Positions 5,354-36,910 of a stretch of DNA of 64,000 nucleotides are shown piece by piece. The stretch comes from Propioniciclava sp. MC1595 (GTDB taxonomy: Bacteria; Actinomycetota; Actinomycetes; Propionibacteriales; Propionibacteriaceae). Made by a program: the position numbers and the translations under genes. How positions within the stretch are numbered: position 1 is the stretch's first letter; every line of letters starts with the position of its first letter. A model generated the notes under the pieces. That model saw only the letters and a program-made list of their open reading frames with translations. It searched no databases and was not told where the DNA came from. The stretch is taken from contig NZ_CP071870.1 in the NCBI RefSeq assembly GCF_017569205.1, forward strand, positions 1,178,001-1,242,000, given 5' to 3'.

Positions 5354-5468
5354 GGCAGGAGCCCTGCCGTGAGGCTTCGACCCGGTCGGACCCCCTGACA
5401 CCACTTCCCCGGTGCCAGGTGGTCCTCCCGGATCGAAACCCCTCAGCAGGGACGAAGGAGGAGCAGGC

Positions 5469-35282: not shown

Positions 35283-35288
35283 TATGGT
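35283..35288 (+). promoter_or_regulatory. -10 box of the leader-peptide/symporter transcript
   Basis: TATGGT lies 33 nt before the leader-peptide ATG. TCGACG (35260-35265), 17 bp upstream, is a possible weak -35. This would give a symporter leader of about 255 nt, one of the longest in the window. Confidence 0.5.
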
Positions 35289-35320
35289 TCACGGGTCAAC
35301 TTCTTCTGAGGGGGTGCAGC

Positions 35321-35389
35321 ATGACGGGCTTCTGGCGTCGACTCGACGTCGACCTCTGCCTGCGCAGCACCTGTGGTTGTCGGGGCTGA
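35321..35389 (+). CDS. Cysteine-containing leader peptide (22 residues)
   Basis: A 22-codon reading frame with ATG after GAGGGGG begins MTGFWRRLDVDLC and ends LCLRSTCGCRG. It has three cysteine codons near its stop, at positions 13, 18 and 20. It lies 160 bp upstream of a DAACS symporter in an otherwise gene-free 331-bp gap. Short actinobacterial upstream frames with a VDLC-like core and clustered cysteines are known before sulfur and cysteine genes in mycobacteria, where ribosome stalling couples cysteine supply to expression. A regulatory role is inferred. Confidence 0.65.
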   Translation: MTGFWRRLDVDLCLRSTCGCRG

Positions 35390-35459
35390 GCCTTCGCCCC
35401 CAGCGTCCCACCGCGCCTCTTGGCGCCCCGTCGGCCTGCTCGCTCGTCCTGCTCTCGAC

Positions 35460-35508
35460 ATGTGCTCCTTGAACGTGGTGCACGTGTCCTCAGGTCGAGG
35501 GAGCACAT
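35460..35508 (+). promoter_or_regulatory. Structured leader between leader peptide and symporter
   Basis: ATGTGCTCC (35460-35468) pairs perfectly with GGAGCACAT (35500-35508). The loop contains a second small hairpin, ACGTG-GTG-CACGT. The outer stem ends 40 nt before the symporter ATG. It could be one of two alternative structures in an attenuator governed by translation of the upstream leader peptide. Confidence 0.55.
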
Positions 35509-35548
35509 TCGGCGGACACCCACTGAACCACCCGTGAAAGGCACCACC

Positions 35549-36910
35549 ATGTCCACCGCACCCGCGGCGTCCGACGCCGCCCCCACCGCCCGGCGCAAGC
35601 CGGCCTTCCCCTTCTGGGCCCAGGTCCTGGCCGGCCTCGTCGTCGGCGTCCTGCTCGGCTGGGTCGCGCGCACCTTCGACGTCGCCTGGCTCAAGGAGCT
35701 GCTCTCGACCGTCGGCACGATCTTCGTGCAGCTGCTGCGCGTCATCGTCGTCCCGCTCGTCCTGACCGCGCTCATCGTCTCCATCACCCAGCTGCGCCAC
35801 GTCGCGAACGCGGCCAAGCTGGCCGTCCAGACGCTCGTCTGGTTCGCGATCACCGCGTTCATCTCGGTGCTGATCGGCATCGGCCTGGGCGTGCTGACCA
35901 ACCCGGGCGCCTCGGCGTCCATCGGCACCGAGGGCGCGAAGGCCGTCGCGACTCAGGGCACCTGGCTCGACTTCATCAAGGGCCTCGTCCCGGCCAACGT
36001 GTTCGGGCTCGAGGCGTCCAGCCGCTTCAACGCCGAGGCCGCCACGGTGGCGACCAGCCTCAACTTCAACGTGCTGCAGCTCGTCGTGCTCGGCATCGTG
36101 CTCGGCGCCGCCGCGCTCGCGGTGGGGGAGAAGGCCGCCCCGTTCATCAACGTCGCGGAGTCGCTGCTGGCGATCTTCCAGAAGCTCGTGTGGTGGATCA
36201 TCCTCCTCGCCCCGATCGGCACCGCCGGCCTCATCGGCCGCGCCGTCGCCACCTACGGCTGGGACCTCATCGCGCCGCTGGGCATCTTCACCCTCGACGT
36301 GTACCTCGGCTGCGCCCTGGTGGTGTTCGGGCTCTACCCGCTCCTGCTGAAGGCGCACGGCCTGTCGGTGCGCCGCTGGTTCGCCGGCGCCTGGGAGTCC
36401 ATCACCCTCGCCTTCGTCACCCGCAGCTCGCTGGGCACGCTGCCCGTCACCCAGAGCAACACGGTCTACAAGCTGGGCGTCCCGCGCAGCTACGCCAGCT
36501 TCGCGGTGCCGTTGGGCGCCACCACCAAGATGGACGGCTGCGCCGCCATCTACCCGGCCCTCGCCGCGATCACCGTCGCGCAGCTGTTCGACATCCAGCT
36601 CGGCCTGCAGCACTACGTGCTGATCGCGTTCGTCGCCGTGGTCGGCTCGGCGGCCACCGCCGGCCTCACCGGCGCCATCGTCATGCTGACGCTGACCCTG
36701 TCGACGCTCGGCCTGCCCCTGGAGGGCGTCGGCCTGCTGCTGGCGATCGACCCGATCCTCGACATGGCCCGCACCGCCACCAACGTGGCCGGCCAGTCGC
36801 TGATCCCGACGATCGTGGCCAAGCGCAACGGCATCCTCGACGAGGACGTCTACAACGGCCACAAGGTCATCGCGGACGCCGAGCCCGAGTTGGCCGGCGC
36901 CCACGCCTGA
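35549..36910 (+). CDS. DAACS-family symporter (dicarboxylate or cystine type)
   Basis: This 453-residue polytopic protein belongs to the dicarboxylate/amino acid:cation symporter family. The re-entrant loop motif reads TRSSLGTLPVT, the middle signature GATTKMDGCAAIY and the late signature DMARTATNVAGQ, all at typical places. The family includes glutamate/aspartate (GltP) and cystine (TcyP) carriers, and sequence alone does not settle the substrate. The cysteine-containing leader peptide upstream makes cystine or another sulfur compound a reasonable hypothesis. The ATG has AAAGG upstream. A strong terminator follows, so the gene is monocistronic. Confidence 0.88.
   Translation: MSTAPAASDAAPTARRKPAFPFWAQVLAGLVVGVLLGWVARTFDVAWLKELLSTVGTIFVQLLRVIVVPLVLTALIVSITQLRHVANAAKLAVQTLVWFAITAFISVLIGIGLGVLTNPGASASIGTEGAKAVATQGTWLDFIKGLVPANVFGLEASSRFNAEAATVATSLNFNVLQLVVLGIVLGAAALAVGEKAAPFINVAESLLAIFQKLVWWIILLAPIGTAGLIGRAVATYGWDLIAPLGIFTLDVYLGCALVVFGLYPLLLKAHGLSVRRWFAGAWESITLAFVTRSSLGTLPVTQSNTVYKLGVPRSYASFAVPLGATTKMDGCAAIYPALAAITVAQLFDIQLGLQHYVLIAFVAVVGSAATAGLTGAIVMLTLTLSTLGLPLEGVGLLLAIDPILDMARTATNVAGQSLIPTIVAKRNGILDEDVYNGHKVIADAEPELAGAHA

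Follow-up and report, generated by a model that had tools for sequence, protein, structure and literature searches.

Why does a short frame with three Cys codons stand directly before a transporter gene? We examined this locus of Propioniciclava sp. MC1595 in a window of 64,000 nucleotides (the whole stretch of DNA analyzed; positions 1178001-1242000 of a 3.43 Mb genome). The transporter is a DAACS/SDF-family symporter of 453 aa, encoded from an ATG at 35549 to 36910 on the + strand, as are all features of the locus given below. Comparison with related loci makes it likely that positions 35321-35389 form a cysteine-responsive leader controlling this gene. A stall at its Cys codons would lead to more symporter and to import of a cystine-type substrate.

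The original prediction had described a 22-codon frame with a ribosome site and a symporter gene 3′ of it, and both are present. The frame, MTGFWRRLDVDLCLRSTCGCRG, runs from ATG 35321 to TGA 35389 and is preceded by a Shine-Dalgarno-like sequence, GAGGGGGTG (35308-35316), recognized from the sequence and from an alignment of six congeneric loci. The downstream protein matched the sodium:dicarboxylate symporter family (Pfam PF00375, SDF) with an E value of 6.6e-97, and its gene has a Shine-Dalgarno-like GAAAGG (35536-35541). The leader was kept in all six aligned loci, while GAAAGG and a promoter-like hexamer each aligned in five. This -10-like hexamer, TATGGT at 35283-35288 (TATGGT or TAAGGT in the five loci), is a possible promoter of a leader-symporter transcript. 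A sigma-70 consensus scan found no promoter. The gene 5′ of the locus is nadE, and the gene 3′ of the symporter encodes an S1-domain protein, probably ribosomal protein S1 as judged by its repeats.

Three codons of the frame specify Cys: Cys13 (TGC, 35357-35359), Cys18 (TGT, 35372-35374), and Cys20 (TGT, 35378-35380). Counted from an Asp at residue 11 (position 0), they stand at motif positions +2, +7, and +9. Both strands of the window were surveyed for frames of 12-38 codons preceded by a Shine-Dalgarno-like site. Among 91 such starts, only the leader frame had at least three Cys in its last ten codons. At Rfam gathering thresholds no family covered the leader, and the window as a whole returned just an mraW motif and one tRNA. 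The mraW motif RNA (RF01746) lies at 5356-5461 and scored 62 bits.

Conservation before symporter homologues was assessed with a profile of 25 leaders taken from non-symporter genes, mostly sulfur genes (the downstream gene was named for 23, in L144, L147, and L155 by eye from likeness to scanned genes; none was nameable for L153 and L154). Applied to the regions before 80 homologous symporters of named genomes, this profile found a like frame of at least 8 bits in 38. Three controls (reverse-complement, shuffled, and in-gene) gave 0 of 80 each, with no control reaching 8 bits; the window leader scored 16.9 bits. Conservation of the short frame upstream of homologues had been put forward as a check on its function, and these counts bear it out. 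When the 80 loci were assigned by hand to phyla, the matches fell in 38 of 51 actinobacterial and 0 of 29 proteobacterial loci. One of the 13 actinobacterial loci without a profile match (L015) has a leader by eye.

A family sample of 97 genomes yielded 31 leader matches, 17 of them directly upstream of a symporter (68-182 bases before the symporter match), a share that is biased because 12 symporter leaders made up the profile used. Counted from the symporters, 17 of the 35 found in this sample had a leader match upstream. The sulfur-gene profile matched 19 of 30 regions of the sample, compared with 0 of 30 reverse complements. Seven of the sampled genomes belong to the genus itself; five carried both leader and symporter and two carried neither. 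In a search across the genus, 6 of 13 genomes had the symporter. Since short frames occur in any GC-rich leader region, the leader might be a chance frame without function. Its conservation against zero in the controls, the fixed codon choice, and the recurrence before sulfur genes (both below) leave this explanation with negligible probability. By these comparisons, the 22-codon frame is a real, conserved leader.

The leader belongs to a recognizable kind. R7, D11, and C20 were invariant in an alignment of 12 symporter leaders, and C13 was nearly so. With NCBIfam models at E values up to 10, seven of the 12 matched NF042934, five Ms5788A, and five Ms4527A (best E, 1.5e-8). The window peptide itself matched no family at this threshold. 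From the alignments we drew our own definition, R-[RL]-x-[VI]-D-L-x(7)-C near the stop, and the window frame fits it with R7, L8, V10, D11, L12, and C20. On this likeness we describe the frame as of the NF042934 kind, without placing it as a member of that model.

Sulfur genes were common downstream of like leaders. Ten of the 14 non-symporter matches in the family sample were scanned, revealing genes for sulfite reductase (two), cysteine dioxygenase (two), thiosulfate-sulfurtransferase-like rhodanese (three), TauE (one), a sulfur transporter (one), and carbonic anhydrase (one). Two unscanned matches (L108 and L110) look like chance frames. A beta-carbonic-anhydrase-like gene stands behind L096 (scanned) and L097 (by eye); among sulfur genes such a target was not expected. 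Scanning 10 of 16 Streptomyces matches identified a CysM-like PALP enzyme, sulfite reductase, ABC-transport proteins, luciferase-like monooxygenase, 2OG dioxygenase, molybdopterin oxidoreductase, and rhodanese, not all of which have a certain sulfur role. Across Actinomycetes, a profile search found at least one leader match in 203 of 246 genomes and in 81 of 104 genera.

A second set of 110 leaders from 88 genomes consisted of the 30 best-scoring and 80 picked for spread among the 150 matches listed. The downstream gene was taken as the longest ORF starting at most 420 nt away, a choice that can be wrong. These ORFs encoded sulfite reductase domains (26-27), SDF symporters (19), rhodanese (19), DUF4395 (10), 2OG dioxygenase (6), PALP (3), Cys/Met metabolism (2), PAPS reductase (1), and others. 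As 17 of the 34 rows in the underlying profile were symporter leaders, the 19 symporters are no fair frequency. DUF4395, a domain of unknown function, was scanned singly behind L206, L213, L240, L266, and L272; its recurrence suggests a sulfur role.

The same genome carries a second leader of this kind. MLNRMPKLVGRPHVDFARVRSSQCCRGC (G000:C1:2574458-2574544, outside the window) ends 122 bases before the start of a sulfite reductase gene. It reads HVDF...SSQC with TGT at +9, and PAPS-reductase-family genes adjoin the sulfite-reductase operon. Within a single cell, then, leaders of one kind precede both the symporter gene and the genes of sulfate assimilation. Two earlier views were dropped on these data: that the symporter was the only leader-controlled gene of the genome, until inspection of the cys operon showed the second leader, and that the genome lacked sulfate assimilation, since sulfite reductase and PAPS-reductase-family genes are present. 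Two earlier profile searches of the genome had returned one match each, and a later profile, built with the second leader, returns it by construction. Because this leader kind precedes many sulfur genes, the symporter is probably under cysteine control. The leader would thus be of a known but little-studied kind, with the symporter target and the codon signature described next appearing as new. In the literature searched, which covered few subscription papers, we found no mention of this symporter as a target or of a UGU bias; this is weak evidence of absence.

At the terminal Cys the leaders share a codon as well as a residue. The first set contained 75 leader cores from 76 leaders entered (L158 lacks the anchor Arg; its +9 codon is also TGT). 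Cys stood at +9, nine codons after the Asp, in 70 of the cores and was encoded by TGT in all 70, or in 48 of 48 distinct peptides. In the second set, found by protein profile alone, the +9 codon was TGT in 108 leaders and TGC in two, and TGT alone in 65 of 67 distinct cores. Left out of the first set were L083 and L102, which duplicate the loci of L002 and L003, as well as L097, L143, L153, and L154, all six with TGT at +9, and the chance-like L108 and L110, in which this codon was not read. Duplicates include L005 and L088 (one locus) and L149 of the first set, which is L170 of the second; more overlap is possible.

The TGT share of Cys codons was 18% (122/676) in long frames of the same loci, 15% (21/137) in the window's long frames, and 9.5% (32/338) in downstream ORFs of the second set. 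A fixed UGU where genes mostly use UGC offers a sharp handle on cysteine sensing by the leader. At +2, Cys was TGC in 41 of 43 (first set) and 39 of 41 (second set). TGT at the remaining positions accounted for 14 of 15 and 2 of 4 at +4 (mostly one Streptomyces group in the first set), 5 of 7 and 2 of 10 at +7, and 4 of 21 and 2 of 6 at +10, respectively. Cys18 of the window frame is replaced by Ser (AGT) in one congener. In 95 of 110 leaders, two to four codons separate the +9 Cys from the stop. Five of the 75 cores lacked the +9 Cys (L035, L046, L025, L064, and L098; three have a stop codon exactly there, one has Trp, and one has Pro) and kept the rest of the motif, and some Geodermatophilaceae and Kineococcus leaders are without the terminal Cys. 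We propose UGU at the conserved Cys as a defining feature of the leader kind, shared by the TGT of Cys20 in the window.

These features suggest how the leader could act. We infer that it is translated and that, when charged tRNA-Cys is scarce, the ribosome would slow on reaching the Cys codons toward the 3′ end of the frame. The main slowing would occur at UGU of Cys20, the presumed stall codon, with two codons and the stop to follow. The slowed ribosome would alter the fate of the downstream RNA such that more symporter is made, and the symporter would import cystine or a closely related sulfur amino acid.

The choice of UGU could itself contribute to sensing. Among 45 tRNA matches in the genome, one was a tRNA-Cys gene, with anticodon GCA followed by A37 and A38. 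This context is the usual site of isopentenyl and methylthio modification. This single tRNA must decode UGC and UGU alike, the latter by wobble pairing. UGU may be slower or more sensitive than UGC. We tentatively suggest that many actinobacterial sulfur genes and the symporter are sensed via this one wobble-read codon, whose decoding may report both tRNA-Cys charging and a sulfur-dependent modification. If so, a synonymous UGU-to-UGC change alone would weaken the response. ARAGORN also identified a selenocysteine tRNA in the genome (L285:58-149).

Conservation of the leaders extends beyond Cys, and many have a single Cys. In the 110-leader set, R was present at +3 in 109, S at +6 in 79, and A at +7 in 70 (the preceding R and the D at 0 occur in every row because the anchor pattern required them). 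These residues would fit nascent-peptide arrest, whereby R-[RL]-x-V-D-L-x-R-x-x-S-A, possibly together with a metabolite, halts the ribosome at the Cys codon from within the exit tunnel and tRNA-Cys charging is not the main signal. However, a sensor acting purely through the peptide would not need the fixed third base of the TGT codon. The ratio pN/pS over 66 cores was just 0.67, too weak an argument for purely peptide-level selection, and that version was rejected. We regard arrest by the peptide as an unlikely, though substantial, competitor to stalling on scarce tRNA-Cys.

Nucleotides around the Cys codon are also biased. The base after the +9 codon was C in 103 of 110 leaders, across Arg, Pro, and Leu codons alike. 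Ser at +6 was AGC in 62 of 79 (20% in genes) and Asp was GAT in 35 of 110 (7% in genes). Such preferences would be compatible with a constraint on the RNA itself, a nucleotide motif overlying the reading frame. Its parts might be the UGU, the C after it, and AGC at +6, recognized by a protein or through base pairing, with coding a secondary matter. Yet the frame and the identity of the Cys were kept in nearly all leaders. Leader and spacer paired about as well as shuffled sequences do: z averaged -0.26 across 36 rows (one Nigerium locus contributes two) and was -1.32 for the window and -0.52 to -1.44 for three congeners. The enriched spacer words listed were largely Shine-Dalgarno-like, and none was complementary to TGTC. 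An RNA element in place of a sensed codon is, on this evidence, distinctly improbable. Separately, CATGCAGCGG, present in most of 19 aligned Streptomyces spacers, could pair with the leader Cys region; this candidate was rejected, as the pairing test over all loci gave it no support.

In the original prediction, the stalled ribosome acts on a 9-bp long-range stem with a nested hairpin, which together serve as the attenuator. The window does contain both inverted repeats, and the 265-nt region is more stably folded than shuffled versions of it (z -2.7), of which 1 of 200 did as well; conservation of the fold was judged by eye. Neither survived comparison. The 9-bp arms (35288-35296 and 35530-35538, 233 nt apart) were not conserved in the six aligned congeneric loci, and by a rough estimate such a match is about a one-in-four event in a stretch of this kind. 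The 5′ arm begins at the last base of the -10-like TATGGT and so may not be in the transcript. The nested hairpin (35460-35508) lies mostly inside a private stretch missing from five congeners. The repeats stand as sequence, and their service as an attenuator is very improbable.

Other forms of read-out were considered. No terminator-like hairpin with a T run was found in the leader region. Release of the symporter ribosome-binding site was modeled by placing a ribosome at the Cys codons and folding only the RNA beyond it. An opening of at least about 2 kcal/mol resulted in only about ten of 32 sequences. In others, among them the window, the opening energy of the start region was unchanged or rose; the window had 5.7 free and 5.1-7.3 with a ribosome on a Cys codon. 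Sequestration of this site relieved by a ribosome on the Cys codons was set aside as a general feature, since opening was not consistent over the 32 sequences.

The spacer (35390-35548) is C-rich and G-poor, making it a possible Rho-loading region. C exceeded G in all 36 rows (C/G of 1.23 to 4.62); the window spacer had 1.55 overall and 36 C against 17 G in its first 70 nt. Control upstream regions in the window (13, one being the symporter's own) had a median C/G of 0.95, and one reached 1.68. In a wider set of 106 spacers, C made up 44% and G 28%; the corresponding shares in the 150 bases preceding the leader core were 33% and 32%. This C-richness is suggestive only, and slightly favors a Rho-dependent read-out. 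Such control would need neither terminator/antiterminator nor sequestered-site structures. Rho-dependent control has been suggested for cys leaders without terminators, in a study that called its own prediction weak (Seliverstov et al. 2005, PMC1262725). Rho-dependent termination in the spacer, shielded by the stalled ribosome, is close to an even prospect in our judgment. Release of the symporter ribosome-binding site in mycobacterial style is possible but somewhat doubtful, and some other mechanism is unlikely.

What might the symporter carry? By sequence, its solved relatives are aspartate, glutamate, and neutral amino-acid transporters. Its TM7 reads TKMDGCAAIYPA, a motif shared by 74 of 80 homologues; one further homologue has ...YPS, and the pattern did not resolve the remaining five. 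The TM7 of Escherichia coli TcyP is NGCAGLYPA, and in an alignment of E. coli proteins the motif of GltP, DctA, and SstT is one residue shorter. The window protein fits the TcyP pattern, GCA[AG][IL]YPA with the extra residue. A second one-residue insertion, after HP1, is common to TcyP and the window protein and absent from the Streptomyces homologue L010, and HP2 of the window protein is without one residue found in TcyP. Overall identity was 30% to TcyP, 30% to GltP, and 29% to DctA. As the symporter is no closer overall to TcyP than to GltP or DctA, we did not classify it as TcyP.

The TM8 motif D..RT..N was kept in 79 of 80 homologues, and its Arg corresponds to R397 of GltPh. This Arg would fit a second carboxylate, as in cystine, cysteate, aspartate, and glutamate. 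Our best guess for the substrate is cystine or another sulfur amino acid, and it is the leader, not the protein alone, that leads us there. A cystine-type substrate, as first predicted, is plausible given the TM7 motif common to the window protein and TcyP. A widespread carrier would thereby be placed in an actinobacterial cysteine/sulfur circuit with a testable substrate. Elsewhere in the genome, at G000:C1:872276-874234 outside the window, this symporter family has two partial matches on opposite strands, which may be what is left of a second carrier.

The nearest parallels come from other bacterial leaders. As Canestrari and colleagues are said to have described in 2020, mycobacteria carry polycysteine leaderless short ORFs before cysteine and sulfur genes, with the ribosome at the Cys codons as sensor. 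The window frame resembles them in being short, in having Cys codons near its end, in its place before a gene with a proposed cysteine/sulfur role, and in the proposed use of the ribosome as sensor. In contrast, it has a Shine-Dalgarno-like site, an R-x-V-D-L motif, and no consecutive Cys, and no consistent fold sequestering the ribosome-binding site was found here. The parallel to mycobacterial Cys-rich leaders first drawn for this locus thus holds for the working principle and not for the form, which there includes a leaderless start and runs of Cys. Lacking consecutive Cys and possessing a Shine-Dalgarno-like site, the frame was not grouped with the polycysteine ORFs.

The cys leaders of Seliverstov et al. 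2005 (PMC1262725) are likewise actinobacterial, with Cys codons near the stop, no terminator, and Rho suggested. The target here is a symporter, and the main text of that study contains neither "transporter" nor "symporter". uORFC-8-2, upstream of cysS in Rhodobacterales, is also a Cys-codon leader and a proposed ribosome-mediated attenuator (PMC8632094). There, UGC is dominant, a tandem Cys pair is present, and an intrinsic terminator follows, whereas the kind described here has UGU at one fixed Cys and no terminator. For the transporter, the comparison is with E. coli TcyP (YdjN), annotated as a cystine/sulfocysteine symporter. It shares with the window protein the Pfam family and the extra TM7 residue, and is set apart by the low overall identity and the one-residue difference in HP2 given above. 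From the NCBIfam leader models the window peptide differs by L-R at +3/+4 (the commonest residue at +3 being R) and by Cys at +7. The symporter leaders as a group have the consensus motif and small size in common with NF042934 (cis_reg_atten, "putative leader peptide") and with the Cys-rich leader models NF042933 (leader_Ms5788A) and NF042936 (leader_Ms4527A).
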